Source: a virus. Taken from it: a stretch of 44,090 nt of DNA. A program made the position numbers and the translations under genes. Under the pieces are notes generated by a model. The model was not told the origin of the DNA, ran no database searches, and was given only the letters and a program-made list of their open reading frames with translations. Shown here piece by piece: positions 16,601 to 44,090 of this stretch. Location of the stretch: the IMG/VR virus record IMGVR_UViG_3300044491_002247, positions 1 through 44,090 of that record; one strand, 5' to 3'. Numbering within the stretch: the first letter of the stretch is position 1; each line of letters begins with the position of its first letter.

Positions 16601-19600
16601 GTTCTAAGAATTAATTATGTTCCAGAACTTGTCATGACAGACATTGCAGCGAACAAAACTACAATCACAATTACTTTTAATAAAAGGCACGGGCTGACTG
16701 CAGGAGATATCATCGGATTAACTGATCTAGGAGACATTACTGGTTTCCACAAAATTACTTCGGTTGATGCATTTCATATTTCTTTCGAGATATCCACGGC
16801 AACGGTAGAAATAGGGTTTGAACCAAGTTCTATAAAATATCCGATATTGCTAACCAAGGCAAGATTTAACGATTATACTTCTATTGATGTGGAACATCTT
16901 GCGTTATTATCAACCGGATCAAAACTTTTTGTTGACAGAAACGAAAATGGTATATGGGAAGTTGTACAGAAAAATAAACAATACTCTCCTAAGAAACTTA
17001 TCAACTACGGAACAAGCACACCGTTAAACGCAGGTAAAAAAGTAGTTTACGCCGAGGTTAGAAAACAAATAGTAAGTTCGATTACCGGTTCAGGAATAGT
17101 TGTTTGCTATCTAGAAACACCGTCAGGTTTGGACGTAAAACAAATATTAGAACCACCTGTTTCTTTTAGAGCAACAACTACTGGAACCTTTGGACAGGAG
17201 ATTGCATTAAGTCCTGACAATGAATGGTTGGTAATTGGTGCTCCTTATGCTAGTGGAATTAGAAGCAATTATCAAGGAGTGTTTAGTTCGATAGAAAGTT
17301 ATTCAGCCAATGATATTGTTCTCTATGCAGGACAATTATGGAAGGCAAAAACTTCTATCACAGGCGATGGAAGCACCATTAACGTTTATAGTGATGACTG
17401 GGAAATTGTTAAAAATGTACAAGCACTAGAGACAGGAACTAATGAAGGCTACGAACAGCAGGGAATGATCTCTGTATATAGGTATATTGGTAATCAATGG
17501 ACATTACAAGATAACTTTGTAAGTCCAAGAGCCGACGGCGATAAACTATTTGGTAGTAAGATAGCACTTGCAAAAAATGGCAGCAATTATTCTATGGTAG
17601 TTTCTGCACCAGGAGCAAGCGAAGAAAAGGGAAGAGTTTATACTTACATCTATGATGCAACAGATGGTTGGGTACTAGATCAAAATTCTGATTATAAAGG
17701 AACTTACGAACCAGGCGGAACATTTGCAGCCACTGAAATGAAACCAGGTAGAACTTACACTATTGCTTCATCTGGTACTACTAATTTTGGTCTTGTAGGT
17801 GCTCCAAATAATTCTCCGGGCACGGTGTTTGTTTCTTTAGGACCAACAGAAGGAACGGGAACAGTAACTCAACAAACATTTTATCCTAAAGACAGTGTTG
17901 TATATTATGCTGGTAATTTATGGAAGGCATTAGCAGATAATGAAGGTGACGGTAGTACAATTACAATAGAGTCTTCGGATTGGATTAAACTAGATACCAT
18001 TAATACGTTAACATCTTTACCTCAAAGTGTTAGCATCGAAGATGACGGTTCTACCCTAGCAACAGGAATTTTAACTAATTCGCAATTGGCAGAACTTATT
18101 AAAGCCGGAGATAAATTTGGTAGTTCTGTTGCATTAGATTATACAGGAAACACTCTTGTAATCAGTGCCGTGGAGGCTGATGGACAATATTTTGCAAACT
18201 ATAGAGGAAATTGGCAGGCAAACTTTGAATACATCCAAGGAGATGTTGTAAAATATCAAAACGGTTATCATAGATTAGATAACATAGGTAGTAATGCAGT
18301 TGGGCCTGACAGTTCAATTAGAAGTTACAACCAACCACCTGATAGCGGTTATCCGTGGGTTAATGTTGGCGACAGTTCATCAGAATCTGTAGGTAAGGTT
18401 TTCATCTATAAGAAAAATGAACTAGGATATTATTATCTAATACAAACTATTACGGCAGACTCATTAGCAGAGATTAGTGACCTAGCACAAACGGAAACTA
18501 TCAACAGCGGAGATCAATTAGGCTATGCTGTATCAATTGATCACAGCGGTAATACTTTGGTAATTACAAGTCCTAAAGCAGATAGAAACTATCAGAATCA
18601 AGGAAGTGCGTACATCTTTAAGTATGAAACAGATTCTAGTGAAAACAGATTTAGATTAAAACAAAAAATTGATAGTTACGGAAAATATCCAAATGAATAT
18701 TTTGGACAAAGTGTTTCTATATCACCTAGCACAAATAAAATAGTTGTAGGTGCAAATAACACAGGATATAATTTACCGATTAGATTTGACGAAAGTCAAA
18801 CATCATTTGATACTTCTAAAACAACATTTAAAACATACGGCGGTTATTCTGGAGCAGTTTATGTTTATGAGAAAAAAGGAGATTTGTATTTCCTAGCAGA
18901 AAAACTACAAGACGATCTTTCACTTAATGAATCTTTTGGTTATTCAGTTCATGCTTCTGCAGATATTATTTTAGTTGGATCGCCTGATTATATTGAACCA
19001 ACCACACACGGTGCAACACTAGATTTTAGTGGAACTGCTGTTGGTATGGTTAGACTTTTTAGAAAACAGTTAGGTATTAATTCTTTAGAAATAATTGGTC
19101 AACAAACAGAAAAAGTTGATTTAGAATCGATCAAGAGAATTGCACTTTATGATACAACAACTGATACAAAGATACAGGATCTTGAAGTGTATGATCCTGC
19201 TAAACTAAAAATCTTAAGAGAAGCAGAAAGAGAATTGTCTTTTAAAACTCCGTATGATCCTGCAACATATAATGTAGGTATTGACGGAGTCACGGTTGAT
19301 TCGAGCATTGCTTGGTATGATAAGAATGTTGGAAAATTATGGTGGAATATTTCAACAGCCAAGTGGATTGATTATGAGCAAGGAGATACTGCTTATAGAT
19401 TAGCAAACTGGGGTAAACAAGCCCAAGGTTCAAGCATTGATGTTTATGAATGGGTAGAATCACCATTGCTACCAAGCGAGTGGTCATCAGTGGCAGATTC
19501 AACTGAAGGTTTGCAGTTAGGAATAAGCGGCCAACCTTTATACCCTGATGATACAGTTTATAGTTATAAAGAATTTTTAAATGTAAACACCGGCTTAGTT

Positions 19601-22600
19601 AGTGAAACAAAATACTATTACTGGGTAAAAAATAAAACAACGATTCCTTCAAATACGAAAGGCAGAACAATTTCGTCAGCATCCGTTGCATTATCAATCA
19701 GCGACCCGTCGACGGTTGGAAACACCTACATAGCACTGGCTGATTCAAATAAAGTGTTTTTCTATAATTACAGAGCAATTGTATCTGGTGATACAACAAT
19801 TTTAAACATAGAACACTACACTGACAAAAGTGCTAAGAATGCAATTCATAACGAATATCAATTATTAACCGAAGGTGTTGCTGACAGCGTTCCACCTAAA
19901 AAATTAGAAACAAAATGGATTGATAGTTTAATAGGATATGACAAACAAGGAAACAGAGTTCCTGATCCTGCTATACCTGCAAAACAACAATTTGGTATTG
20001 GCTTTAGACCGAGACAAAGTATGTTTGTCAATAGAAAACAAATTCTAAAACAAACTATTGAAACCGTTAATGGAATTCTTAAGAAACAACCATTTGCTAA
20101 CATTATTAGTTTTGATAATTTAAACTTGTTTGACGCCCAGCCTGATACAAGTTTATATCTGTATGATGTTAGTGTATCAACTTTAATTGATTTAGAAACT
20201 GTTGGTACAGTTAGAGTAGAACAAGCACAACTTACTCCTAATATCATAAACAATGAAATTAGTTCTGTTAATATTGTTAATCCTGGTTTTGGATATAGAC
20301 CACAAGAAATATTTGACCAAGAAATTGCAGGAGTATATGCAGGTCCTGCCGTTACTATTGAAGGTGATGGTACTGGAGCAGAAGCAGTATGTCATATAGA
20401 TGGTCAAGGTAGAGTCACTGCTGTTGTTGTTACCAAACCTGGTAAGAATTACACATATGCAAATGTTTCCGTAAGAAGATTTTCTGTCTTAGTCGAAACA
20501 GACAATACAGCAAATAACTATTGGTCAATCTATGCCTGGGATAATGTTAGAAAATCTTTCTTCAGAAGTTCCTCACAAGGATTTGATACTAGAAAGTATT
20601 GGTCCTATGCCGATTGGTGGAAAACAGGATATGGTCCTACATCTAGAGTAACAACAGAAATATCTGACGTTTCCAAAGAACCAACAATCATTACCGAGAT
20701 TGGTGATCTTATTAGAATAAAAGAATATGGTTCCGGCGGCTGGGCAATTTTTGAAAAGATGTCTGATTCCAGCAGTGTTCCTTTAGGAAACTATCAACTA
20801 GTTGGAAGGTTCAACGGAACAATACAGTTATCTAATACATTGTATGATATTACAACAAGTGGTATAGGTTTTGATAATAACGTGAGCTTTGACACAGGAT
20901 TGTATGATTTAGAACCAACGACAGAATTAAGAAATATTTTCAAAGCAATCAAAGAGGATATCTTTATTGGTGATTATGACATTCATTGGAATGAAATATT
21001 CTTTAATTGTGTCAGATATGTAATGCATGAACAGACTTACGTCGACTGGGCATTTAAGACAAGTTTCTTGAATGCTACACACAACGTTGGTGATTTTAAA
21101 ACAACTACTAATTATAAAAACGATAACTTAGAAAGTTTTGAAAGTTATATTAGCGAAGTAAAACCATATCGAACAACGGTTAGAGAATATGTAAGTAGAT
21201 ATGATTCGATACAGACTAATCCTATTTCAACAACAGACTTTGATTTACCAACTGTATATTCTCAAGAATTAGGGAAGTTTAGTACTATAAATCAATTCAG
21301 CACAGAACTAAATTCTTATCCTTGGAAATACTGGCTTGATAATAATGGATATAGTATTGTTCAAATAGTTATATCTAAACCTGGTAGTGGTTATACTAGT
21401 GTTCCTAAGGTAGTAATTGAAGGAAACGGATCAGGTGCAATAGCACAAGCATTTATTTCTAACGGTAAAGTTTCTGGTGTTAGGATGATACAGACAGGAT
21501 CCGGATATACTAAAACTCCTACAATTTCATTAGTTGGAGGTAACGGTAGTTCAACGGATATTGCAAAAGCAGTAGCAGTTCTTGGAGAAACAAAAGTTAG
21601 AACTTTTGATATCAATATTAAGTTTGATAGAATAAACAAGACTGGATACTACAATAACTTTACAGATACTCAAACGTTTACCGCTAACGGGCAGACAGCA
21701 ATATTCGATCTAAAGTATGCTCCGACTAGAGATAAGTCAAAAATCACTATTACTAAAAACAATGGTGTTGTGCTAGGAAGTGATTATACAATCAATCTCT
21801 ATAAAAATAGCACTGATGACTTTAATGTTCTTAGAGGAAGGATTGTTTTTAATATTGCACCGGATGTTGGAGATATTATAAAAGTAACTTACGAAAAGAA
21901 CGACGAATTATTTGATGCTGTTAATAGAATTAACAAATACTATGCTCCGGTAGAAGGAATGAAAGGAGATGACTTGGGTCAATTAATGACCGGAGTTGAT
22001 TTTGGTGGTGTACAAATTCAAGGAACCACATTTGATGTTACAGGTGGTTGGGACGCACTTCCTTGGTTTACAGATAGTTGGGATAGTGTTGAAGCAAGTG
22101 CGGATTATTATCATGTATGTGACGGAAGCACAGAAGATGTGACACTTCCGTTTATCCCTGCCGACGGACAGGAAATTAATATCTATCTTAAGCGTGCAGG
22201 TGAGGGAACCCTACCAACAATTGATAATTTACAATACAGCGAAAGCGTAAAGAATCCACCAGTAATTAGAATAGATGATCCTTTCTTCTTTGACGGAAAC
22301 GACTCTTCAACGTCTACAAGTCCAAATGCACAAATGCCAACATTTGTCGGAGATGGTTCAACAAGTGTTATTGAGATAGGTCGTTATATTACAACTAATG
22401 ATGGCGATATCTTAATATTTAGACCACAGGAAAGCGACGGTAGTGTAACCATTACTGATCCTAATATTGTTGATACAAATGTAAGTGGCGGAACATTATC
22501 TGCAATTGATCAAGCATATGTAACTGCTTCGGGAATTTCTGCAGAAGAAATACAGATCGAAGGCGGAAGATTTATAGGACCAGATCAAGTTCCTGCAACA

Positions 22601-29367: not shown

Positions 29368-31374
29368 ATGGCATATGTAATTAATAAGAGCGATGGAACA
29401 GCGTTTACCACACTAGAAGACGCTACCATTAATACCGATTCTAGTCTTGTTCTGGTAGGCAGAAATTACATAGGTTATGGTGAAGCACAAAATGAAAACT
29501 TCCTGTTCCTATTAGAAAATTTTGCAAATAGCTCAGCACCGGCAAGACCAATCGCAGGACAGTTATGGTTTGATACCACAGTTAATGTTCTAAAGGCATA
29601 TGATGGTACAAAATGGGTAGCAGTTGGATCAGCAGCAATTTCTGCAACACCACCAGTTAACCCACCAGCAGGATCATTTTGGTTTAAAACCCCAATCAAT
29701 ACTCTACACACATGGGACGGAACACAGTGGGTGTTCATTGGACCAGAGGCAGTGGAAGGTTACGGAACGACAAGAGCAAGAAGCACGACATTGCTTTCAG
29801 ACACAGGAATTACGTATCCGGTAATACTATTAACAGTTAGTGACTTAGTAGTTGGAATAATATCAACTGGATCTTTTACAATAGCAAGTTCAAATGCCAT
29901 TGCAGGATTTAGCAGCCTGGATGCAGGAATAACACTAAGCACCTCGTATAATTTTAAGGGCAACATCAATGGAAATGCTTCAACGGCAACGGCACTTGAC
30001 ACGCTCAGAACAATTAACGGAATAGGTTTCGATGGAACACAGAACATCACAATTAAGGCAAGCACCACAAACAAATTAATAGCAGGTGATTATTTACTTG
30101 GAACTGATTTCGACGGTGGAACGCAACAAACATGGAGCGTTGATGCAACAGCGGCCAACTCCATTGGCAAGATAGTTGCAAGAAACGCATCCGGCGGATT
30201 TAGTGCAGGATTAATCACAGCAAATCTAGCAGGCGATGTAACTGGAAACGTTACAGCATCGACAGGTACTTCTAGGTTTAACATAGTTGAAGCAAACACC
30301 TTTGTTGGTGCAACACTAACAGGTAATGCTTTCAGCGCAACAAAACTAAGAACTGCACGCAATATTAATGGCGTTCCTTTTGATGGACAGTCTGATATTA
30401 CCGTAACTGCCAGCGCCAGAACACTAACTGACACAGCATTGGCTGCTGGTATCGTTAGTTCACAATTAGAGTCAGTAGGACTTTTAAACAAGTTAGATGT
30501 TAATGGTTTAGTAACCGTAAGCAGTAATTTTACGATCGGAGCATCCGGCAGCGATACAAATTTAACCGCAACAAGAGTACTACGCTTAACAGCAAATGAT
30601 GGAACCGATACTTCAGTAGTTGATCTAATTTCACCAGACGTTTCAAGCCTAGCAGGATATGGAGCCAAGGGTGCAATCATTCCTAACGTGGATCAGGATC
30701 TTGATCTAGGTAAGAGTGGAAGAAAGTGGGACAAAGTCCATGCAAATACATTTGTTGGAGACCTACAGGGTAATGCTGATACGGCCACTCTCGCAACTAC
30801 CGCTACAAATCTTGCGGGCGGAGCCGCAGGCTCTATCGCTTACCAGACTGCGTCTGGAACTACCGCGCTGCTCCCTGCGGGATCGCCTGATCAGGTTCTT
30901 GCATCTCGAGGAACTGCTGCACCACCTGTATGGGTTGATAACGTTTATGAATCGTCACAAGCAGTTAAATTAAAAACTTCAAGAACTATCAATGGTGTAA
31001 GTTTCGACGGTACTGCGAACATTACAATAACTGACAACACAAGAGTAGCACTTGCCGGTGATACCATGACAGGTTTCCTAACCCTTCATGCTAATCCTAC
31101 AGCAAATTTACATGCAACTCCAAAGCAGTATGTTGACAGTGCGATAGCAACAGCAATTGCAACAGTTCCAACACCACTCTGGGCAGGTGCAACGACACTA
31201 TCAAATGTCACATCGACGTTTGCTGGTTATGCAGCAGGAACGAGAGTTTCATTCTGGAATGAAAGAGTTTACAATGCACCGAGATACGGTAACGGTGGTG
31301 CGGCAACTGTATATGATAGATACAAAGAGACCGTTGAAAAACAGTCTAATGGCACGTGGATAACGGTAGGATAA
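29368..31374 (+). CDS. Tail fibre protein with three INGxxFDG repeats and a GC-rich inserted module
   Basis: 668 residues. N-terminal shared module (about 1-130: YIGYGEAQNENFLFLLENFA, GQLWFDTTVNVLKAYDG, WVFIGPEA). The shaft has three copies of a LxTxRxINGxxFDGxxxITI repeat (about 211-233, 326-350, 533-555) and an LDLGKSGRKWDKVHANTFVG module (about 445-470). Residues ~474-520 (NLAGGAAGSIAYQTASGTT and onward) are coded by a markedly GC-rich stretch. HATPKQYVDSAI (about 575) is a coiled-coil signature near the C-terminal domain, which ends in KQSNGTWITVG. CAGGAG (29356-29361) precedes the ATG. Confidence 0.8.
   Translation: MAYVINKSDGTAFTTLEDATINTDSSLVLVGRNYIGYGEAQNENFLFLLENFANSSAPARPIAGQLWFDTTVNVLKAYDGTKWVAVGSAAISATPPVNPPAGSFWFKTPINTLHTWDGTQWVFIGPEAVEGYGTTRARSTTLLSDTGITYPVILLTVSDLVVGIISTGSFTIASSNAIAGFSSLDAGITLSTSYNFKGNINGNASTATALDTLRTINGIGFDGTQNITIKASTTNKLIAGDYLLGTDFDGGTQQTWSVDATAANSIGKIVARNASGGFSAGLITANLAGDVTGNVTASTGTSRFNIVEANTFVGATLTGNAFSATKLRTARNINGVPFDGQSDITVTASARTLTDTALAAGIVSSQLESVGLLNKLDVNGLVTVSSNFTIGASGSDTNLTATRVLRLTANDGTDTSVVDLISPDVSSLAGYGAKGAIIPNVDQDLDLGKSGRKWDKVHANTFVGDLQGNADTATLATTATNLAGGAAGSIAYQTASGTTALLPAGSPDQVLASRGTAAPPVWVDNVYESSQAVKLKTSRTINGVSFDGTANITITDNTRVALAGDTMTGFLTLHANPTANLHATPKQYVDSAIATAIATVPTPLWAGATTLSNVTSTFAGYAAGTRVSFWNERVYNAPRYGNGGAATVYDRYKETVEKQSNGTWITVG
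30781..30925 (+). other. GC-rich module inside a fibre gene (likely recombinational swap)
   Basis: By my count 73 of the 120 bases at 30781-30900 are G or C (61%). The flanking 60-base blocks at 30601 and 30961 give 42% and 37%. Codons such as GCG, GGC, CTC and CTG, rare elsewhere in the fibre genes, cluster here. The encoded NLAGGAAGSIAYQTASGTTA type sequence is a module I recall from many marine phage fibres. A recent module exchange is the simplest reading. Confidence 0.65.
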
Positions 31375-31377
31375 ATA
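31370..31377 (+). promoter_or_regulatory. Putative late promoter box GATAAATA
   Basis: Seven of eight match to TATAAATA, overlapping the stop codon of the preceding fibre gene. With T4-type spacing (box at -13 to -6) transcription would start at 31383, the A of the next gene's ATG. It would then give a leaderless message for that gene, or serve the genes after it. Confidence 0.5.
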
Positions 31378-31382
31378 TTGAT

Positions 31383-31889
31383 ATGAATAGGCAATCAGCA
31401 CTAGCACAGTTTAACAAACTCAATAAGAAATTCACAACAGTCTTGGCATTGATCGAAGATCAATCCTTGTTAAATCATGACCTCTATCTTTACAGAGAAA
31501 TTGAAATTGACATTAATAATGAAAATGTCAGAGGAACCTACGACAGTTATGAAATTTATGATGTGAATGCAACTCCTCTAATGACAGAGGATCTGTTAAA
31601 CACCATGGCTAGAAATAGAATAGTTGAAAAATATCCTTTGGAATCTCAACTAAGCATCTTGGGAAGTGTGTTAGAACAGGTTGCTGATGCAAATGCAATC
31701 AGTTGCAATGAATTAAAAGAGATGAATGACTTCATATCGGAAGTTAAGCGTGTAAACGGAATTAGAAAAGAATTTTACAGAACGAATTCTCAATTTGAAT
31801 ACAAGAGTACCGAAGATATTGATGCAGAAATTGCAGAAAAATATGAGGGTGCTATTCAGGAATATGGTGATGACATACGTGATCTCTAA
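31383..31889 (+). CDS. Hypothetical protein between fibre genes
   Basis: 168 residues, not recognised. It looks soluble and largely helical with a strongly acidic C-terminal half (DIDAEIAEKYEGAIQEYGDD); no Cys clusters, signal peptide or membrane segment. The frame stays open upstream to 31356, but that start lies inside the preceding fibre gene; ATG 31383 lies just after its stop and is preferred. There is no Shine-Dalgarno in front of it, which fits either a leaderless transcript from the adjacent late box or coupling to the upstream gene. It overlaps the 2OG oxygenase gene by about 20 bases, suggesting a linked role. Confidence 0.6.
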   Translation: MNRQSALAQFNKLNKKFTTVLALIEDQSLLNHDLYLYREIEIDINNENVRGTYDSYEIYDVNATPLMTEDLLNTMARNRIVEKYPLESQLSILGSVLEQVADANAISCNELKEMNDFISEVKRVNGIRKEFYRTNSQFEYKSTEDIDAEIAEKYEGAIQEYGDDIRDL

Positions 31890-32343
31890 ATATCTAGATA
31901 AGGAAACAGCGGCCAAAGCCAGAGAGTACGCTGAACAACTTGAAGAACCTAGATGGATCAGAAGATCATCGATGCCTACTCCTAGACAGGTTGACGGTTC
32001 GACCTGTGCATATGATTTTTGTGGGCATTCTCAAATGCCTAAGCACATAATTGAATTTTATAAATCGATCGCTCCTTTTTTTGAGGATCATAGGCTTGCA
32101 GAGATAGCCATAAATAGATACAAGATCGGTGATTACCTTGGTAAGCACAGAGATGTTGATTATTATAGAAAGAATTTGGTCATCTCGTTACAGGACGGTG
32201 ATGATGGATTGATCATAGATGACGATAATGAATTTATTAAGGATTCTATGGGACAGGGAGTTTGTATTGAGGGAATAGGACCGGTGCACAGTGTTGCACC
32301 TGTAAACAACAAAAGATATTCTTTGGTTTATCTTTACGAGTAG
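31870..32343 (+). CDS. 2-oxoglutarate/Fe(II)-dependent oxygenase
   Basis: Predicted dioxygenase that couples 2-oxoglutarate decarboxylation to hydroxylation of an unknown substrate. With the start at 31870 it has 157 residues, about the size of a minimal prolyl-4-hydroxylase-like domain. INRYKIGDYLGKHRDVDYY (81-99) holds the iron ligands H93 and D95; the distal His is H140 (GPVHSVAPV) and the 2-oxoglutarate-binding Arg is R149 (NKRYSLVYLY). All four key residues are in order. Start: AGGA at 31858-31861 lies 8 bases before ATG 31870 and only 2 before ATG 31864, so 31870 is preferred. Such enzymes are common in marine T4-like phages with mostly unknown substrates; its place among fibre genes suggests a virion protein, but that is inference. 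Confidence 0.82.
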   Translation: MTYVISKYLDKETAAKAREYAEQLEEPRWIRRSSMPTPRQVDGSTCAYDFCGHSQMPKHIIEFYKSIAPFFEDHRLAEIAINRYKIGDYLGKHRDVDYYRKNLVISLQDGDDGLIIDDDNEFIKDSMGQGVCIEGIGPVHSVAPVNNKRYSLVYLYE

Positions 32344-35519: not shown

Positions 35520-36506
35520 ATGGCTGGTATTAATACAAAAATAGACAAAGACGATTATAACGCTATTCAGTCGGTTATTGCTAGAATTTTGGGAGTTGGA
35601 TCTGCTAACAGCGGATACGGACAAACAGTACTCAGTTCGCAAGTAACGGTTTCTGACGCAGTAACGGTTAATGAATATGCTGCACTTCGTTATGATATCA
35701 TTAATGTAAATAAACACATCTTCAATGCAACTCCATCTGGAATAAATGATCAAACCATTGGAGCAAAAGTTAGATATGATGCTGCCAATGCCCCTATTAA
35801 CTATTGGCTTTCTATTGCAAACTCACTAGACACTGTACGTTTAACACTTGCTCCTGCAGGACAGCGTGTTTCGATAAATCACGGAACAAACACTTTTACG
35901 GGTGCTTGGGGTTCCAACACCAATCCACAATTGGCATGCGTAGTGACATGTGAGTGGACAAACAGTGAACAGGCTAGATTCTTTTTTAATTCAGGAAGTT
36001 CGATTCAATTTACCAGTTCAAGAACGGGCGGTTCCTCAACGGCACAGAACACTTCATGGACCACTTTATTAAGCACCGCTGGTGCTAGGATTTTTGGTGG
36101 AGCAACACCAGGAACAGGAACTTCACCTGCTGATGGACAAAATTTCTTTAGGTTAACTGATGCAGGTCAAACTTGGAGCAATGTTGTTGCTTCGTCTCCT
36201 TATTCATTAAATGAATTTTCAATCACTGCTGAAACAGATGATACTCCTGTTGTATCAAACAACAGCGCAGGAACTTCAAAAAAATTAAGGTTTGAAGTTT
36301 TTTGGAACGATAACCACTTTCCACTAGGTGGAGATTCAGCATCAGGAACACCAGTACAGCCAGGCACATTTGGTCCGGATACTGTTGACGGAACAGTCTC
36401 GCTGACAGTCCAAACAGTCAAGGCTTCTGGTGTTTTGGAACCAACAGGTTCTGGCAATTTTACTATCGAAACTCCAACAGTTACGATAGGTCCTATTACT
36501 AATTAA
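35520..36506 (+). CDS. Virion structural protein, second of a tandem paralogous pair
   Basis: 328 residues, sharing the layout of its upstream paralog: N-terminal SGYGQTVLSSQV block (about 35-50), a central ARFFFNSGSSIQFTSSRTGG block (about 155-175), and a C-terminal VDGTVSLTVQTVKASGVLEP block (about 290-310). It is about 30 residues longer, mostly from an insertion near 190-205 (GGATPGTGTSPADGQ). The pair reads as an old tandem duplication with strong divergence. It has its own late box and Shine-Dalgarno, unlike its paralog, so the two could be made in different amounts. The exact virion location is unknown. Confidence 0.68.
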   Translation: MAGINTKIDKDDYNAIQSVIARILGVGSANSGYGQTVLSSQVTVSDAVTVNEYAALRYDIINVNKHIFNATPSGINDQTIGAKVRYDAANAPINYWLSIANSLDTVRLTLAPAGQRVSINHGTNTFTGAWGSNTNPQLACVVTCEWTNSEQARFFFNSGSSIQFTSSRTGGSSTAQNTSWTTLLSTAGARIFGGATPGTGTSPADGQNFFRLTDAGQTWSNVVASSPYSLNEFSITAETDDTPVVSNNSAGTSKKLRFEVFWNDNHFPLGGDSASGTPVQPGTFGPDTVDGTVSLTVQTVKASGVLEPTGSGNFTIETPTVTIGPITN

Positions 36507-36529: not shown

Positions 36530-36537
36530 GATAAATA
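36530..36537 (+). promoter_or_regulatory. Putative late promoter box GATAAATA heading the glycosyltransferase/radical SAM cassette
   Basis: TCGATAAATAAT in the 59-base gap, followed by AGGAGGT (36556-36562), the strongest Shine-Dalgarno seen in the window, 3 bases before the ATG at 36566. No other box or gap of note occurs from here to the right edge, so this is the likely promoter for the whole cassette. Confidence 0.6.
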
Positions 36538-36565
36538 ATATGCTACTATAATTATAGGAGGTATT

Positions 36566-36916
36566 ATGCAAGAGGAATTCCAAAAAGCATTGGATTTTTC
36601 TAACTATAGAAAAACATTTGCTATTCAGAGAAAAACCCTTAAAGAAAAAATTGAAGCCAAATTAACCTACGGCCATAACGGAGGTGTCTTCAAGATTGAT
36701 AGAACACTTCTTAACTTTGTGGAAATGTTAATCTACAAAGACAGATCTGAAGATGTTGTGGTTTTGGATGCAAATGAAAATCCAATCCTTATAAAAAATT
36801 TGGTAGAGTTCAGAGAAGAAATATTTGACAGATACTTTACAGCAACTAATGAGTATTTTGAAGAATATCAAAAAATTAAAAAAGCGAGATCAGTAGAATC
36901 TCTATTGGAAGTATAA
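36566..36916 (+). CDS. Small conserved phage protein at the head of the cassette
   Basis: 116 residues, function unknown. I recall similar short proteins (FANYR-like start, NGGTFKI-like middle, KYFEATNEY-like end) in marine T4-like phages; here the matching parts are LDFSNYRKTF (9-18), HNGGVFKIDRTLLNFVEMLI (37-56) and DRYFTATNEYFEEYQKIKKA (88-107). It appears helical with one central hairpin (DVVVLDANENPILI) and a C-terminal coiled-coil-like helix. No enzymatic motif. It has a near-perfect Shine-Dalgarno and a late box, so it is probably made in quantity. Confidence 0.6.
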   Translation: MQEEFQKALDFSNYRKTFAIQRKTLKEKIEAKLTYGHNGGVFKIDRTLLNFVEMLIYKDRSEDVVVLDANENPILIKNLVEFREEIFDRYFTATNEYFEEYQKIKKARSVESLLEV

Positions 36917-36919
36917 CAA

Positions 36920-37777
36920 ATGAATAAGGGTGTAATCCTATTTGCTCACAACAATAGGCAGATTGATTATGCCTTGATGAGCCTCCTAACAGCAAAATTA
37001 GCAAAGAAACATTTAGAAGTTCCTGTGAGTTTAATAACTGATCCTTCAACGATTGATTGGATGAAGGAATCGGATATTCTTAAAAAAGCAACTGAAACCT
37101 TTGAACAGATAATAATTACCCAGCGTCCGGAAGATGGCAATATGAGAAATTTTGCCGACGGTAAGAATATTAATCCTGCACCATTTAGTAACGGTAATAG
37201 ATTTTCTGCTTATGATCTTACTCCGTATGATAGAACGCTATTGATCGATACGGATTATCTAATATTGTCTAAAAATCTAAACGAGTATTGGGATGTTGAT
37301 AGCGACTTATTAATGTCTCCTAAGTACAATGATATCATAGGCAAGGAAAGAATAGGATACTTAGATTCACACATATCGGAAACCGGAGTCGAAATGTATT
37401 GGGCAACAACGGTAATGTTTACAAAAAATGAATATACCAAGATGTTTTTTGACCTAGTGGAATACATTAAAACAGAATATAAAATGTTTGCAGATGTTTT
37501 TAGATTTGATCCTAGAGTTTATAGAAATGACATATCCTTTAGCATCGCTAAACACATTCTCAACGGTTATCAAAAAGTAAACGAATACAACCTTCCTGAT
37601 GTGTTTTCAACAACAGACAAGGATATTTTACACAGCATATCTGAAAATAAATTACAATTTTTAGTTTCTGACAAGGATAATTTTATCGCTGCTTCAGTTA
37701 ACAACAAAGATGTGCATGTCATGAATAAGTTTAGCATAGTTCGCAATTACGAAAAGTTAATGGAGTTAGCAGAATGA
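36920..37777 (+). CDS. Glycosyltransferase, GT8-like, first of two
   Basis: 285 residues. Predicted GT-A-fold sugar transferase: an N-terminal Rossmann-like half begins GVILFAHNNRQIDYALMSLL, and the nucleotide-sugar/metal motif is DTD at 110-112 within DRTLLIDTDYLILS. The later WATTVMFTKNEYTKMFFDLV and DPRVYRNDISFSIAKHIL segments match the acceptor-side layout of GT8-like enzymes. Donor and acceptor are not predictable. It shares overall layout with the next gene (TPYDRTLLIDTDYLILSKNL against SPWDQTICLDADMLFLRDYS), so the two are probably diverged copies. Its stop overlaps the next start (ATGA), giving translational coupling. Confidence 0.72.
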   Translation: MNKGVILFAHNNRQIDYALMSLLTAKLAKKHLEVPVSLITDPSTIDWMKESDILKKATETFEQIIITQRPEDGNMRNFADGKNINPAPFSNGNRFSAYDLTPYDRTLLIDTDYLILSKNLNEYWDVDSDLLMSPKYNDIIGKERIGYLDSHISETGVEMYWATTVMFTKNEYTKMFFDLVEYIKTEYKMFADVFRFDPRVYRNDISFSIAKHILNGYQKVNEYNLPDVFSTTDKDILHSISENKLQFLVSDKDNFIAASVNNKDVHVMNKFSIVRNYEKLMELAE

Positions 37778-38616
37778 CATTTGGATATCTATTAGTTGTG
37801 TCGGAAAAGGATGATACCAATTATGCAAGGCTCGCATATGCTCTTGCTCTGAGCATTAAGAATACACAAAAAGAAGGATACGACAAGGTAGCACTAGTAA
37901 TTAATGATAAGAAAAGGCTAGAAGGATTTACTTCAACGTGGGTATTTGACGAAATTATCGAATGGGATGGAGCAGAATTTTGGGACGGTAGATCTCATAT
38001 GGATTTATTAAGTCCTTGGGATCAAACAATATGCCTTGATGCCGATATGCTGTTCCTTAGAGACTACAGTCACTGGGCTGAATATTTTATTAAGAATAGC
38101 GAATTATATGTTGCCAACAAATCCTATACCTATCGAGGAGAAGTCGTAACTGATGATTATTACAGAAAAACTTTTTTAGCGAACGAATTGCCTAATTTAT
38201 ATTCCTTTTACACATTCTTTGTTAAGGACAGCCAGTTGGCTAAAGAATTTTTTAACTTGCAAAGAGAAATTATTAAAAATCCTAAGGAGTTTAGTAATCT
38301 ATTCCTAAACAATTATAAACCCAAGATTGTAGGAACCGACGAAGCATTTGCGTTAGCAGCCAAGATACTAGACATATCAGATCAGATTTCATATGATTTA
38401 GAATTTCCTAGAGTCGTACACATGAAAGGCATGATACAAAAGTGGCCTTACCCTGCGGATAGTTGTTATGATCACATTGGATTTTATTTTAATAGACAGG
38501 GTAAATTAAAACTAGGAAACTTTGAACAAACTGATATTGTCCACTACGTAGATAAGGACAAGATCACTCTAGAAACAATAAACATATTGGAGGAAATAGC
38601 ATGGAAGAAAAACTAA
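37774..38616 (+). CDS. Glycosyltransferase, GT8-like, second of two
   Basis: 280 residues. The DxD-type motif is DAD at 89-91 in QTICLDADMLFLRD. The N-terminus (TFGYLLVVSEKDDTNYARLA) resembles GT8-like proteins that act on stored or surface sugars. GTDEAFALAAKILDISDQ (about 189-206) and FPRVVHMKG (about 212) sit where these enzymes carry acceptor and metal-binding residues. Substrates are unknown. It overlaps the preceding gene by four bases and the following one by sixteen. Confidence 0.7.
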   Translation: MTFGYLLVVSEKDDTNYARLAYALALSIKNTQKEGYDKVALVINDKKRLEGFTSTWVFDEIIEWDGAEFWDGRSHMDLLSPWDQTICLDADMLFLRDYSHWAEYFIKNSELYVANKSYTYRGEVVTDDYYRKTFLANELPNLYSFYTFFVKDSQLAKEFFNLQREIIKNPKEFSNLFLNNYKPKIVGTDEAFALAAKILDISDQISYDLEFPRVVHMKGMIQKWPYPADSCYDHIGFYFNRQGKLKLGNFEQTDIVHYVDKDKITLETINILEEIAWKKN

Positions 38617-39245
38617 AACTTCCGGATTTTGACGAGTGGATCAAGAACTACAAACCGGAGCCGGTAGTTTATTGTGCTGCTTTTGATCCAGAATCAGGAA
38701 AGGTATTAGCAGTAGGTCCTAATCACGCCGTTAATGAAAAACAATATAGCAATGTAATAGAATTAGATTCTGACGTTGCTGAAAAAATTATATCTGGTGA
38801 TATAAGGATGAGCAAGTGTTTTGTTGATCCACACGAAGGAAAACTAGAAATAGTAGAAGTAAAAGACCTATTTAAGATTGACGATATGTTGCACAGAATT
38901 ATTGTTAAGGAATGGTCAGACATTAAGAAGCCTGATATTCACTTGACACACTACGCTGATGGTAATACACTAATGATACAATTATCAGAAGAATATGGTG
39001 GAACATATAAGCAAGATGAGGAACACCAGCCAGTGGCAAAAAGAAAAATGTTTTGGGATGGTGATACGGTATTAGACTTTACTATAACTGATTACAATGA
39101 TCCTAATGTTATTGCTGATAACTTTAGCATTAAAATTAACGAATTAGTTGGAAACAAAGTTATTAAGTCCGAACTAAACATTCCAACATATTTTAGTGTA
39201 TACACTAGAAGACTATTTAAAAATTACATGATTGAGGAAAAATGA
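38601..39245 (+). CDS. Hypothetical protein within the glycosyltransferase cassette
   Basis: 214 residues, not assigned. The N-terminal part (about 20-100) looks like a small alpha/beta unit (PVVYCAAFDPESGKVLAVGP, then SNVIELDSDVAEKIISGDIR). The C-terminal part (about 110-205) is mostly beta with DIHLTHYADGNTLMIQLSEE and TVLDFTITDYNDPNVIADNF, and could be a carbohydrate-binding or scaffold-like domain, though no signature supports that. The start has GGAGGA at 38589-38594 and lies inside the end of the preceding gene. Coupling on both sides ties it to the enzymes around it. Confidence 0.6.
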   Translation: MEEKLKLPDFDEWIKNYKPEPVVYCAAFDPESGKVLAVGPNHAVNEKQYSNVIELDSDVAEKIISGDIRMSKCFVDPHEGKLEIVEVKDLFKIDDMLHRIIVKEWSDIKKPDIHLTHYADGNTLMIQLSEEYGGTYKQDEEHQPVAKRKMFWDGDTVLDFTITDYNDPNVIADNFSIKINELVGNKVIKSELNIPTYFSVYTRRLFKNYMIEEK

Positions 39246-40147
39246 AAAAAGTAGTTGAGTTTGATGTTTTCTTTTTGAGTTACGATGAGCCTAATGCAGA
39301 TTTACATTACGCTGATCTATGTAACAAAGTGCCTTGGGCCAAAAGAATACACGGTGTAAAGGGTTCTGACCACGCACACAAGGCAGCAGCAGAACAATCA
39401 GAAACTGATTGGGTTTTAACCGTTGATGCTGACAACATTGTATATCCAGAATTCTTTGACATAGAAATAGACATGGACAATCCGGACATTCGTGCATACA
39501 GTTGGTGTGGTCGCAACAATGTTAATGGCCTGCGCTATGGTAATGGCGGATTAAAACTGTGGAACAGAGATCATGTGCTTAATATGAAAACGCATGAAAA
39601 CGCAGACAGTGAAAGAGCTCAGGTTGATTTTTGTTGGGAAGATGGTTATAGAAATTTTCCTAAAACATTTAGTGACACGGTAATTAATGCAACACCCTTT
39701 ATGGCATGGCGTGCTGGATTTCGCGAAGGTGTAAAAATGACACTGGATGGCGGATTAAAGGTTCCTTCACAAGAAATTGAAAAACGTGTTTGGTGGCACA
39801 ATATGCACAGGCTAAGAATGTGGAGCACAGTTGGAAGCCATGTTGAAAATGGTTTGTTTGCCGTATATGGAGCAAGGCTAGGAACATATCTTACAAACTG
39901 TACGGATTGGGATCATGTTCAGGTTAGAGATTTTGAATCGTTACGTGAATTGTATAATGAACAGTGCAAGGATTATGAGGACGGCTTTGGACTTGAACAA
40001 GAAGTTAAAAGATTAGGAAGTGAATTAAGACATGAACTAGGATTTAACTATCCCAACCTGGATCCGTCAATGAGCAAGTATGTTATGGATCTATACGAAG
40101 AATCAATTAATTTAGGAAAAACATACTTCAGTCAAACTTATGTATGA
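39242..40147 (+). CDS. Glycosyltransferase-like protein with DAD motif
   Basis: 301 residues. Shows a GT-A-type core: FDVFFLSYDEPNADLHYADL at the N-terminus, KGSDHAHKAAAEQSETDW, then VDADN with D62 and D64, the expected nucleotide-sugar/metal site. GLRYGNGGLKLWNRDHVLNM (about 96-115) has a close counterpart in the next gene (DLEYGYGGVKLFPREATLNM), showing that they are paralogs. The C-terminal part is helical and acidic. I know similar proteins from marine phages but no demonstrated substrate. Arg codons switch from almost all AGA to a mix with CGT/CGC. Starts by ATGA overlap after the hypothetical gene. Confidence 0.65.
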   Translation: MKKVVEFDVFFLSYDEPNADLHYADLCNKVPWAKRIHGVKGSDHAHKAAAEQSETDWVLTVDADNIVYPEFFDIEIDMDNPDIRAYSWCGRNNVNGLRYGNGGLKLWNRDHVLNMKTHENADSERAQVDFCWEDGYRNFPKTFSDTVINATPFMAWRAGFREGVKMTLDGGLKVPSQEIEKRVWWHNMHRLRMWSTVGSHVENGLFAVYGARLGTYLTNCTDWDHVQVRDFESLRELYNEQCKDYEDGFGLEQEVKRLGSELRHELGFNYPNLDPSMSKYVMDLYEESINLGKTYFSQTYV

Positions 40148-41195
40148 TATATTTTTTGTCAGCAAGGAAAAAATTAATAATGATGCTTGGACGAGGTTCA
40201 AGCAATCAGTACCTCATGCACAAAAAATAGAAAATTGTGATACCTTTGAAAAGGTAGCAAACAAGTCTCTAACAAAACACTTCTGGGTAGTATGGGATAA
40301 CATCACAGTCAATCCTAATTTTGAATTTGATTATAGAATACCCGAGTGGGATGAAAAATATATTCACGTGTTTCGAAATGGTGCATACCATGATGGTATC
40401 TGCATATTTCCTAAACGTTCTAAGATACTCCAGAGGGAGTGGGACTATCGATTCTTTACCAACAAGAAAGAAATGGACACAACAGCAAGCCAGCCCATTC
40501 CATACGATGTTGCTTTCATATCATATCATGAGGAGCATGCGGAAGAGAATTTTAATAAGTTATTAAAGAAAGCACCGCATGCACAATGGACACGTGATGT
40601 CAAGGGCATACACCAAGCACACATAGAAGCAGCAAGGCGTGCAACCACGGACATGTTTTACATAGTTGATGCTGATGCTGACGTGTTGGAAGATTTTCAA
40701 TTTGACATGCAGATTCCCTACTATGATTTTAATGCGAGAAAGAGCGTGTATGTTTGGCGCAGCAGGAATCCAATCACTGATTTGGAATATGGCTATGGTG
40801 GTGTTAAACTGTTTCCCAGAGAAGCAACGCTTAACATGGACACGGATACTCCGGACATGACCACTAGCCTTTCTGACAGTTTCCGTGCAATGGAACAAGT
40901 AAGTAACATAACAGCATTTAACACGGATGCATTCTCTACCTGGAAGAGCGCATTTAGAGAATGCTGTAAGTTGGCAAGTAGAACCATAAGGGGACAAAAT
41001 GATGATGAAACGGATCAAAGACTTAGCAAGTGGTGTTCGGACTATGGACGCGACAGACCTTTTGGCGACTATGCAATCAATGGTGCCCGTGCTGGCAGGG
41101 TTTATGGTGTGGCTAATAGTGCTGATCCTGATGCTCTTCGGTTGATAAATGATTTTGATTGGTTAAAGGAACAGTTTGATGCAGGACAAAGATAG
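40140..41195 (+). CDS. Glycosyltransferase-like protein with an internal duplication (degenerate plus intact half)
   Basis: 351 residues in two related halves. Residues ~1-108 begin YDIFFVSKE and contain SVPHAQKIE and HFWVVWDNITV (W52-D53-N54). Residues ~121-345 repeat the pattern with YDVAFISYHEE, KAPHAQWTR, and MFYIVDADADVLEDF (D177, D179, D181). The first half therefore lacks the metal-binding acidic pair and is shortened, while the second half looks complete and is paralogous to the preceding gene (shared GYGGVKLFPREATLNM block, NGARAG near the end). A regulatory or substrate-binding pseudo-domain next to an active domain is the likely reading. Overlaps the preceding gene by eight bases and the next by seventeen. 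Confidence 0.66.
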   Translation: MYDIFFVSKEKINNDAWTRFKQSVPHAQKIENCDTFEKVANKSLTKHFWVVWDNITVNPNFEFDYRIPEWDEKYIHVFRNGAYHDGICIFPKRSKILQREWDYRFFTNKKEMDTTASQPIPYDVAFISYHEEHAEENFNKLLKKAPHAQWTRDVKGIHQAHIEAARRATTDMFYIVDADADVLEDFQFDMQIPYYDFNARKSVYVWRSRNPITDLEYGYGGVKLFPREATLNMDTDTPDMTTSLSDSFRAMEQVSNITAFNTDAFSTWKSAFRECCKLASRTIRGQNDDETDQRLSKWCSDYGRDRPFGDYAINGARAGRVYGVANSADPDALRLINDFDWLKEQFDAGQR

Positions 41196-42543
41196 AATAG
41201 AAAAATTCATACCCATTATGGAGGAGATATCTCCTACATTCTGCTTGGCCAAATGGCACCACACGACCATCTATTTACAAACAGGTGAAACACACAGTTG
41301 TTATCATCCTGCACCGCACGCAATACCAATACCAGGACTTGAGGAGAATCCAAGTCAACTGCACAATACTCCGCAGAAAAAAGCAGAGCGCAAGGAAATG
41401 CTTGAAGGCAAGAAGCCAAGCGGATGCCAATACTGCTGGAACATTGAATGCATGGGCAAGGATTACATAAGTGATAGGAAGGAAAGAAATGCAAGTATCT
41501 ATACTGAAGAAAGATTTGCTGCAATTAAGGCAGACCCTTTGGCTGATGTTAATCCGCAGTATGTAGAAATATCATTTGGTAATGAGTGTAACTTCAAGTG
41601 CGGCTACTGCCATCCTAAGCACAGTTCAGCATACCACAAGGAAATACGTGACCACGGTCCATACACGATGGTCAAGAATCATCGCAATGACATTGATTGG
41701 TTCAAGGTATATGAGGAAGAGGATAATCCATACGTTAAGGCATTCTGGAAGTGGTGGCCCGAACTGCGCAAGACTCTTACGATATTGAGAATAACGGGCG
41801 GCGAGCCTCTGCTACAGCAGAGCACGTGGCGCATGTTTGAAGAACTTGAAAAGAACCCAATGCCAAATCTTGAACTAAACATTAATTCAAACTTTGGTGT
41901 AAAGCCCTTACTGATAGAACGCTTTGCGGACAAGGTTAATAACCTAGTAGAAAAAGGTTGTATCAAGGAGTTTAAGGTATTCACTAGCATGGATACTTGG
42001 GGTCCACAGGCCGAATACATTAGAACTGGATTGGATTTAGAATTGTGGGAACGCAATCTTGACACATACATGACCAAGACTAATATGCCGTTAACATTCA
42101 TGATTACGTTTAATATTCTAACTGTAACAAACTTTAACAAACTGCTTAAAAAGATTCTTGAATGGCGTGTAAAATATAATATTGACGATCAAACTAAGTG
42201 GCAACGTATAAGATTTGATACTCCGTATTTAAAGGAACCTTTACAGTACGATATGAACATACTGCCCAAGGACGAGTTTATACCTTATATGGAATCGCAT
42301 CTACAGTTTATTAAGAACAATTTAGATGATTTTAACAAACACAAGTTTTCAGAACTAGAATATGAAAAGTTTCGACGTGTGGTTGATTACATGGCATCAA
42401 CTGATTATACTGTTGAAAAATTAACGGAAGGTAGAAAAGATTTTTATAATTGGTTTACAGAATATGATCGAAGAAGAGATCTTGACTTTGTTAAGACCTT
42501 TCCTGAATTAGAGAACTTTTATTATGACTGCCGAACCGTCTAA
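41179..42543 (+). CDS. Radical SAM protein with N-terminal cysteine cluster (first of two)
   Basis: 454 residues from ATG 41179; the TTG three bases upstream is less likely, and AAAGGA at 41165-41170 fits the ATG. The radical SAM cluster motif is CNFKCGYC (C137, C141, C144), followed by the SAM-binding ITGGEPLL. N-terminal cysteines C22, C41, C83, C86 and C91 (FCLAKW, SCYHP, GCQYCW, ECMG) could hold an auxiliary iron-sulfur cluster, in the layout of radical SAM proteins with an N-terminal twitch-like domain. INSNFG and FTSMDTWGPQAEYIRTG complete the barrel and match the next gene. The reaction is unknown; relatives modify peptides, sugars or cofactors. It carries many CGC/CGT Arg codons. Confidence 0.8.
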   Translation: MQDKDRIEKFIPIMEEISPTFCLAKWHHTTIYLQTGETHSCYHPAPHAIPIPGLEENPSQLHNTPQKKAERKEMLEGKKPSGCQYCWNIECMGKDYISDRKERNASIYTEERFAAIKADPLADVNPQYVEISFGNECNFKCGYCHPKHSSAYHKEIRDHGPYTMVKNHRNDIDWFKVYEEEDNPYVKAFWKWWPELRKTLTILRITGGEPLLQQSTWRMFEELEKNPMPNLELNINSNFGVKPLLIERFADKVNNLVEKGCIKEFKVFTSMDTWGPQAEYIRTGLDLELWERNLDTYMTKTNMPLTFMITFNILTVTNFNKLLKKILEWRVKYNIDDQTKWQRIRFDTPYLKEPLQYDMNILPKDEFIPYMESHLQFIKNNLDDFNKHKFSELEYEKFRRVVDYMASTDYTVEKLTEGRKDFYNWFTEYDRRRDLDFVKTFPELENFYYDCRTV

Positions 42544-43708
42544 AACATTTTGTATATTGCCCTGGATACACATATATGCCAACCCAGATGGTAATGTATT
42601 GCCTTGTTGTATAGGAGATTGGAATAAACCTCTAGGAAACATACAGAATAATACTCTTGATCAAGTCTTTAATAACAATAAATTTAAAAAGATGAGACAG
42701 AACATGCTGCAAGGAAAGCAATGTGCAGAGTGTTCCGTTTGTTACAGAGATGAAGCAACCGGTAATTCTAGTTTTAGAATACATTCTAACGAACAGTTTT
42801 CAAAATATATCCCCCAAGCATTAGAAACTAATCCAGATGGTTCACTAAAAGATTTTAAATTAAGATACTTGGATATAAGATGGAGTAATATATGCAATTT
42901 TAGTTGCAGGTCCTGTAGTAGCACATATTCATCTAGTTGGGCAAAGGAAGATGGCAAGAAAAATGTTTACATATTTGCCGGAGGAAACTCCAACGATGAA
43001 TTGTATAATCAATTTGAACCTCATTTTGATACAATAGAAGAATTTTATTTTGCAGGCGGAGAACCGTTATTAACTGATAAGCACTACGACATATTGGAAT
43101 ATCTTATTGAACACAATAAAACAGACGTTAAGTTAAGATACAATTCTAATCTATCAGTATTAAGATACAAGGACAAGAACATATTAGAATTGTGGAACAA
43201 GTTTAATAATGTTTATGTCGGAGCGAGCCTGGATAGTTGGGGCAAGCGTGCTGAGTATATTAGGCACGGAACAAAATGGAATCTAATAGAGGATAACATC
43301 AATAGAATTAGAAAAGAAACACCGCATGTTAATCTTCAAACAAATACAGTTGTGTCAATATTTAATATACACACTCTTCCTGAATTTATAAACTATTTGA
43401 TTGATAACAATCTAGTTGACATTAATAATTACAAACCTCATTTTTATAATATACAGAATCCAGATTTTTATAGTTTTAATATCTTAACTAACGACTTTAA
43501 AGAAAAAACTCTAACAAAATTAAAAGAGTTTATGAATAATTCTTCGGATAATATAAAGTATGCTGTACAGGGTGTAATAAATGAACTTGAATCTTCGAAA
43601 TATACACCTGAATTAAAAAGCAAATTAGTTATTAAGACAGAATACTATGACATGCTAAGGAATGAAAACGTGTTAGAAACATTTCCAGAAATAACGGAGT
43701 TGTTTTAA
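42524..43708 (+). CDS. Radical SAM protein with N-terminal twitch domain (second of two)
   Basis: 394 residues. The N-terminal twitch/SPASM-like domain (about 8-75) has FCILPWIHIYANPDGNVLPC (C10, C28, C29), an NNTLDQVFNN linker and CAECSVC (C67, C70, C73), suited to an auxiliary iron-sulfur cluster. The radical SAM motif is CNFSCRSC (C124, C128, C131), with FAGGEPLL as the SAM-binding GGEP and SLDSWGKRAEYIRHG further along, paralogous to the previous gene. This architecture matches the N-terminal-twitch radical SAM family found in phages and environmental bacteria, whose substrates are mostly unknown. It overlaps the preceding gene by twenty bases, and its TAA shares one base with the next ATG. 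Confidence 0.84.
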   Translation: MTAEPSKTFCILPWIHIYANPDGNVLPCCIGDWNKPLGNIQNNTLDQVFNNNKFKKMRQNMLQGKQCAECSVCYRDEATGNSSFRIHSNEQFSKYIPQALETNPDGSLKDFKLRYLDIRWSNICNFSCRSCSSTYSSSWAKEDGKKNVYIFAGGNSNDELYNQFEPHFDTIEEFYFAGGEPLLTDKHYDILEYLIEHNKTDVKLRYNSNLSVLRYKDKNILELWNKFNNVYVGASLDSWGKRAEYIRHGTKWNLIEDNINRIRKETPHVNLQTNTVVSIFNIHTLPEFINYLIDNNLVDINNYKPHFYNIQNPDFYSFNILTNDFKEKTLTKLKEFMNNSSDNIKYAVQGVINELESSKYTPELKSKLVIKTEYYDMLRNENVLETFPEITELF

Positions 43709-44090
43709 TGAAAGCATATTTTGATAACCTTAATCTAAATGAGTCTAATTGTAGACATTTAGAATCCACAAAGGAAACAGATAATTGGTATGTTGCTCCA
43801 GGTTCGATGATTAAGAAGAACTTATCAGCATTACAAATAGAAATGGATACCCTAGATAATCTTACAGATCCAGGTTGGTACTATGTTGATGTTAGGAATG
43901 ATCCTAACTGGTGGTCAGGAGCAATCGATCCGACAGGTGCTGTAGGAGTAGTACCCACTAAGCACGTTATAGAATGCTTGCCTAATAATGTTCTAAATCT
44001 AGTAAGAGAAAAGAAACTAAGATTAGTAATTGCTGCTGACAGAGAAGGTGGTCCAATGGTATGTGAGCATTACGATGCCTTTAGAGAGAC
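43708..44090 (+). CDS. Partial conserved phage protein cut by the right edge
   Basis: The frame is open from ATG 43708 to the window end: 127 codons plus two bases. The start codon overlaps the preceding stop (TAATG), so it is translationally coupled to the radical SAM gene. Visible sequence includes DNWYVAPGSMIKKNL (about 25-40), DPGWYYVDVRNDPNWWSG (about 55-72) and LRLVIAADREGGPMVCEHYD (about 103-122), a Rossmann-like strand-turn. I associate this pattern with a family that travels with N-twitch radical SAM genes in marine phages. No function can be named. Confidence 0.7.
   Translation, partial: MKAYFDNLNLNESNCRHLESTKETDNWYVAPGSMIKKNLSALQIEMDTLDNLTDPGWYYVDVRNDPNWWSGAIDPTGAVGVVPTKHVIECLPNNVLNLVREKKLRLVIAADREGGPMVCEHYDAFRE

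Follow-up and report, generated by a model that had tools for sequence, protein, structure and literature searches.

Seven genes in fixed order behind a fibre gene form the core of a putative late operon in an uncultured lineage of aquatic jumbo myophages

Introduction

In pelagimyophages, a host recognition cluster combines glycosyltransferases (GTs), mostly of family GT8, with radical S-adenosylmethionine (SAM) cassettes beside the fibre genes (Zaragoza-Solas et al., 2020, PMC7029224). In the moraphage lineage of jumbo phages, four glycosyltransferase orthogroups are core, along with gp6 and gp25 (Perez-Hernandez et al., 2025, PMC12619734), and PMC5332604 reports an environmental, T4-like genome that contains 12 radical SAM genes. 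The present analysis concerns a cassette of such genes in the IMG/VR virus record IMGVR_UViG_3300044491_002247, a stretch of 44,090 bases that is referred to as the window. At its right end, a fibre gene is followed by a tight array of genes, here numbered q1 to q9 and continued to q12 in an overlapping contig. Genes q1–q7 are the fixed, lineage-defining core of what is predicted to be a 12-gene late operon.

Like the pelagimyophage cluster, this locus places glycosyltransferase and radical SAM genes by the tail fibres, in the late structural region of a T4-type marine myophage. The pelagimyophage island, located between VrlC and gp14, is hypervariable and non-syntenic, and its radical SAM cassettes come and go, whereas order and content of q1–q7 were fixed across the lineage. 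With moraphages the locus shares an origin in uncultured aquatic jumbo phages and conserved glycosyltransferases; in contrast to what is reported here, PMC12619734 describes no operon, radical SAM genes or late promoter. The 255-kb Vibrio phages K566 and K567 (OZ196521, OZ196593) also carry four genes related to the N_Twi_rSAM family, interleaved with GT8-like and GT4-like genes and accompanied by a fibre-like protein (VPHK566_0303-0311, L201; GT and fibre labels assigned by eye). However, no homologues of q1–q6 were found among their genes tested, their radical SAM proteins were only 21–25% identical to those studied here, and their genome context differs. Virus glycosyltransferases that act on virion proteins, as proposed below, are represented by mycobacteriophage virion glycosylation (Freeman et al., 2023, as cited in PMC12619734) and by the PBCV-1 enzyme 2p6w; unlike the present locus, these systems, so far as those sources describe them, lack a comparably fixed operon following a fibre gene, and no sequence homology with them was detected.

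A first-pass annotation of the window had suggested an undescribed modification system. Islands of glycosyltransferase and radical SAM genes by fibres (PMC7029224) and core glycosyltransferases (PMC12619734) were already published, so that this suggestion needs qualifying; what the literature searched did not yield was a late core of seven genes that has this composition and is fixed throughout a lineage.

Results

Order and content of q1–q7 are conserved across one phage lineage

When ORF coordinates and junctions were rechecked on the sequence, all nine open reading frames (ORFs) listed in the first-pass annotation were present as described, from position 36566 to the right edge. The junctions were likewise exact, with a 3-base gap between q1 and q2 followed by overlaps of 4, 16, 4, 8, 17, 20 and 1 bases. 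Across approximately 190 loci, retrieved by searching with genes of the cassette and profiled gene by gene, the order q1-q2-q3-q4-q5-q6-q7 was the same almost everywhere. Overlaps were kept as well (−4 in 153 of 159 loci for q2/q3 and −8 in 136 of 164 for q5/q6), which supports the predicted translational coupling of the genes. Even distant members, at 32–54% identity, retained the order fibre-like neighbour, q1, q2, q3, q4-like gene, q5.

Because these loci had been retrieved with cassette baits, a gene outside the cassette, encoding a gp6-like baseplate protein, was used as an independent bait, and 12 contigs were tested. Eleven of these had approximately 36 kb or more downstream of gp6, and all 11 held q2, q5, a q6-like domain and a q7-type radical SAM gene; the twelfth was too short to reach the position of the cassette. 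Among these 11, one had a weak q7 match, and some carried the radical SAM genes on the opposite strand. Independent scattering of the genes in relatives, named in the first-pass annotation as an observation that would speak against its proposal, was therefore not seen.

Identities of the core proteins tracked those of gp6 (rho 0.69–0.92), and median identities of q3 (70%), q5 (69%) and q7 (79%) compared with 69% for gp6. Pairwise ratios of nonsynonymous to synonymous substitution rates (dN/dS) in the core were 0.02–0.14, with some dS values near saturation. Change in step with gp6 and low dN/dS together indicate that all seven genes are maintained.

Baseplate and late-sigma genes of the window were of the T4 type. 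The gp6-like protein was at best approximately 36% identical to proteins of isolated phages, the listed ones being jumbo or large myophages such as SCTP-2, Atu_ph07 and PA5oct. A gp6 of this type occurred at 62–84% identity in 14 of 18 cassette contigs (the contig L010, discussed below, being among the remainder), which indicates that the cassette belongs to one uncultured aquatic jumbo-myophage lineage, as judged from these marker genes. Identity of this lineage with the moraphages, which are marked by a core lysyl-tRNA synthetase (24 genomes), an Hc1 histone and a Bacteroidota host (PMC12619734), was considered and not adopted: on nine lineage contigs, all incomplete, the synthetase was found in none and the histone in one.

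No similarity between the operon DNA and isolated phages was found, and q1, q2, q3 and q5 had no tblastn match among 50,697 phage records. Apparently bacterial relatives of q5 were examined for what they might reveal about a host pathway and rejected as a guide to one. L202 and L206 (PBPT01000016 and PBPT01000082), assigned to the Neomarinimicrobiota metagenome-assembled genome RS350, contain the phage cassette together with fibre genes; a gp6-like gene in the same bin indicates a jumbo phage that was binned as a bacterium. L203 and L205 have phage-like fibre neighbours. L204 (Rhodobacteraceae, 32% identity) was the only one of cellular appearance, and the genes around it were uninformative.

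A late-promoter-like box heads the operon behind a fibre-family gene

The box GATAAATA was confirmed at 36530..36537 on the plus strand, 36 bases ahead of q1, together with an AGGAGGT Shine-Dalgarno sequence ahead of the ATG at 36566. Among distinct relatives, NATAAATA stood 34–39 bases 5' of q1 in 52 of 69, and it was found in none of 435 distinct regions upstream of q2–q7. The window also encodes a gp55-like sigma factor (65–901, E 9e-77), so that both elements of a T4-type late promoter, a TATAAATA-like −10 box and a gp55-like factor, appear to be present. The restriction of NATAAATA to the operon head is consistent with the late-type expression that had been proposed. A tally of GATAAATA in the window was rejected as evidence for late promoters: four copies were seen and 3.6 were expected by chance, and for that reason only the conserved position of the box was counted.

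The gene immediately upstream of q1 (35520..36506, plus strand) encodes a 328-amino-acid fibre-family protein with an N-terminal LGxGSxxxGYGQ motif, recognised by homology among the neighbours of q1, and is the candidate acceptor discussed below. Of 81 distinct genes found in this position, 80 belonged to the same family, in line with the earlier proposal of a functional unit tied to the fibre genes. In some relatives the protein was fused to Gly-rich proteins of 650–907 amino acids, and in the window it is preceded by fibre genes with phrog tail matches. Within the fibre region, an endonuclease-like ORF (31795–32343, phrog_2297) overlaps the ORF 31356–31889 and may be a homing-endonuclease insertion. 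Further upstream, a single virion protein of 4647 amino acids (phrog_10938, 10679–24622) fills almost one third of the window.

Four transferase-like proteins

The products of q2 (36920..37777) and q3 (37774..38616), both on the plus strand like all genes of the array, had been called GT8-like. The gathering score of Glyco_transf_8 (PF01501) was reached by neither; the family was matched by one of 33 q2 relatives (E 0.0028), q3 had no Pfam match, and searches of PDB profiles with either protein returned nothing convincing. The two are remote paralogues (E 2e-5), q3 matched phrog_1903 (E 9e-5), and a D-x-D motif was invariant in the alignments of both (D110/D112 in q2, D89/D91 in q3). The pair thus retains an invariant D-x-D and one weak Pfam match in the q2 family, without passing the Pfam cut-off, and both are probable glycosyltransferases, q2 being weakly GT8-like.

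The first-pass annotation had also named a pair of DAD-type transferases, q5 (39242..40147) and q6 (40140..41195). For q5, an AlphaFold2 (AF2) model (predicted local distance difference test, pLDDT, 83; predicted TM-score, pTM, 0.82) gave 38 Foldseek matches in the PDB at E ≤ 1e-3, all of them glycosyltransferases except for the sugar nucleotidyltransferase HddC. The top match was the capsid glycosyltransferase 2p6w of PBCV-1 (E 6e-5); full-length TM-scores were modest (0.3–0.4) and supported no specific donor. The motif D62-A63-D64 was invariant in the q5 alignment, and fold and motif together support a GT-A fold for q5, as modelled. The second member, q6, is a paralogue of q5 (31% identity, E 1e-26) with a truncated extra domain copy at its N-terminus, as located by domain mapping. 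Its relatives range from 221 to 972 amino acids, the added length consisting of degenerate or undetected GT-A-like domain copies (e.g., L152:4949-7864).

Two radical SAM enzymes with N-terminal auxiliary domains

Over residues 1–398 of the N_Twi_rSAM model NF033640, q7 (41179..42543, alternative TTG start at 41176) scored 322 bits and q8 (42524..43708) 387 bits, against a curated threshold of 170 bits and with coverage of the full model. The predicted two radical SAM enzymes with N-terminal cysteine clusters were thereby confirmed. The motif CxxxCxxC was present in 86 of 86 distinct q7 relatives and 46 of 46 distinct q8 relatives, nearly all of which had four to seven cysteines upstream of it. 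In addition, q8 matched SPASM (PF13186, E 9e-12), and a PDB profile search with q7 gave nothing convincing.

CxxxCxxC with auxiliary-cluster cysteines is shared with the SPASM/twitch enzymes BtrN, MoaA, PqqE and SuiB (PMC9012708), in contrast to which the auxiliary domain of N_Twi_rSAM is N-terminal. BtrN oxidizes an aminocyclitol and PqqE makes a C–C bond in a peptide (PMC9012708); no NF033640 member of known reaction was found in the literature searched.

Two phage-specific proteins

The operon head q1 (36566..36916) encodes a conserved protein of 116 amino acids without significant match in Pfam, PHROG or PDB profile searches. It was conserved down to 29% identity in distant loci, with dN/dS of 0.02–0.05. 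The fastest-changing core gene, q4 (38601..39245), encodes a 214-amino-acid, phage-specific protein that is beta-rich in its AF2 model (pLDDT 78, pTM 0.57) and may be an adaptor or a structural protein. No PDB fold match was found for this model, its pTM limiting the weight of that result, and a PDB profile search was also unconvincing; sequence matches were to uncharacterized proteins of uncultured phages only (best E 6e-12).

A variable part follows the core

Extension of the window to the right was achieved with contig L003 (IMGVR_UViG_3300021961_007396), which overlaps positions 41091–44090 (3000 bases) at 99.9%. It completes the edge gene q9 (43708..44090 in the window; L003:2618-3859; 413 amino acids) and adds q10 (263 amino acids), q11 (386 amino acids) and q12, so that the operon reaches 12 genes before convergent minus-strand genes end it. 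The proteins q9 and q11 are paralogues that share a TEKxFKPIxxGHP motif region with an invariant E..EK, which we take to resemble a GT-B, GT10-like transferase; a PDB profile search did not confirm this family. In q10, the motif residues of an SGNH hydrolase are present, with the block I Ser in an invariant G-C-S close to the N-terminus and the block V D-x-H as D199-x-H201; no profile match was obtained, PDB profiles included. The last gene, q12, encodes a nucleotide-sugar dehydrogenase (PF03721, E 8e-21). Throughout q1–q12 there was no clear membrane segment (a single marginal window was seen in q9), and the products include neither a lipid-carrier flippase nor a polymerase. Downstream of the operon, L003:11436-12449 (minus strand) encodes an Fe-S/radical-SAM-type protein (Fer4_12, E 0.004, the only match) that resembles QueE.

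After q7 the gene content differs: near relatives have q8–q12, and elsewhere radical SAM genes stand in tandem or the set is reversed. Only q1–q7 are fixed, and q8–q12, opened by the second radical SAM gene, are a swappable appendix. A different phage, L010 (IMGVR_UViG_3300013286_000830), carries q7–q12-type genes together with a B12-type radical SAM gene and an HldE-like heptose adenylyltransferase; q1–q6 and gp6 were not found in the stretch read, which indicates that the downstream part can travel without the core.

Discussion

The reading that we favour, tentatively, is late synthesis of a glycan on an acceptor shared by the whole lineage, with the fibre, or another virion protein whose gene lies directly upstream, as the most likely candidate. 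Late transcription would start at one GATAAATA-type promoter, as its conservation (rather than RNA) suggests, and translational coupling may fix the proportions of the overlapping genes, so that a single transcript would set the relative amounts of its products, namely four transferases, two phage-specific proteins and one or two radical SAM enzymes. Sugars may be added successively by q2, q3, q5 and q6, among which a fold was modelled for q5 only, and q7 and q8, to judge by their family, could oxidize or rearrange a sugar or a protein side chain. The exchangeable set of q9 and q11 (GT-B-like), q10 (esterase-like) and q12 (sugar-nucleotide dehydrogenase) would supply or tailor the outer glycan.

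The chief rival explanation is late-infection remodelling of the host envelope by the operon products, at the level of lipopolysaccharide (LPS) core or O-chain sugars, which would keep new particles off debris and exclude rival phages, as proposed for the pelagimyophage islands. Host remodelling has been put forward for the GT8 genes of the fibre region in those phages (PMC7029224). The q9–q12 genes resemble surface-polysaccharide genes, with a nucleotide-sugar dehydrogenase, an SGNH-type esterase and what we presume to be a GT10-like motif, and in the divergent L010 such genes stand with an HldE-like heptose adenylyltransferase. Host surface glycans vary fast, yet q3, q5 and q7 were as conserved as the baseplate; moreover, the fixed core sits behind a fibre gene (80/81), and the operon encodes no membrane protein or flippase. 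We regard envelope remodelling as somewhat unlikely. Because the acceptor appears to be constant across the lineage, a virion protein, with the upstream fibre as the first candidate, would fit better than a fast-changing host surface, and the lack of membrane segment, flippase and polymerase in q1–q12 is as expected for a cytosolic acceptor. The capsid glycosyltransferase found as top match of the q5 model was also counted in favour of virion modification.

Several points weigh against modification of a virion protein. The acceptor is itself a candidate proposed from the genes alone; glycosyltransferases of the LPS core likewise lack membrane segments; and the fibre neighbour evolves faster than the enzymes, down to approximately 32% identity. 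The putative q2 and q3 transferases are only weakly linked to GT8, and simple descent within one lineage could explain part of the synteny. Virion glycosylation in mycobacteriophages and PBCV-1 involves, to our knowledge, no radical SAM enzymes, and we know of no characterized virion-glycosylation pathway that does.

Two further explanations were weighed. If only q8–q12 made a glycan, q1–q7 could be a set for fibre assembly or maturation, in which q1 and q4 act as chaperones or adaptors while processing of the fibre polypeptide falls to q7 and the transferase-like proteins. The fixed positions of the phage-specific q1 and q4, which lack enzyme matches, among the glycosyltransferases would suit this, as would the variability of q4, expected for a partner of variable fibres; the invariant D-x-D motifs and the GT-A fold of q5 argue instead for real sugar transfer, and we regard this explanation as improbable. 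Modification of phage DNA bases (glycosylated or hypermodified) against host restriction is the best-known role of phage glycosyltransferases (discussed in PMC12619734). Here the late-type promoter lies beside fibre genes and not with replication genes, no base-hypermodification gene was recognized in the operon, and q10 and q12 suit glycans rather than bases, which makes this the least credible of the explanations and very improbable.

Phage islands of glycosyltransferase and radical SAM genes have so far been treated as variable, host-modifying cargo. A module that is conserved like the baseplate wedge and has a fixed place behind a fibre gene looks instead like part of particle building. 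In its strongest form, the proposal that late glycan synthesis acts on a virion protein would make q1–q7 a dedicated, lineage-essential pathway that places a glycan and a radical-SAM-made modification on the tail fibres of a widespread group of aquatic jumbo phages. We consider this form doubtful; if it is true, no earlier virion modification system would have paired glycosyltransferases with radical chemistry of the SPASM/twitch type. The question of the acceptor can be tested in Vibrio phages that carry the same enzyme families, with K566 as a test bed for the enzyme combination. If the fibre is the acceptor, a novel type of virion modification would be added in an aquatic phage group that is common, and host recognition would be affected.

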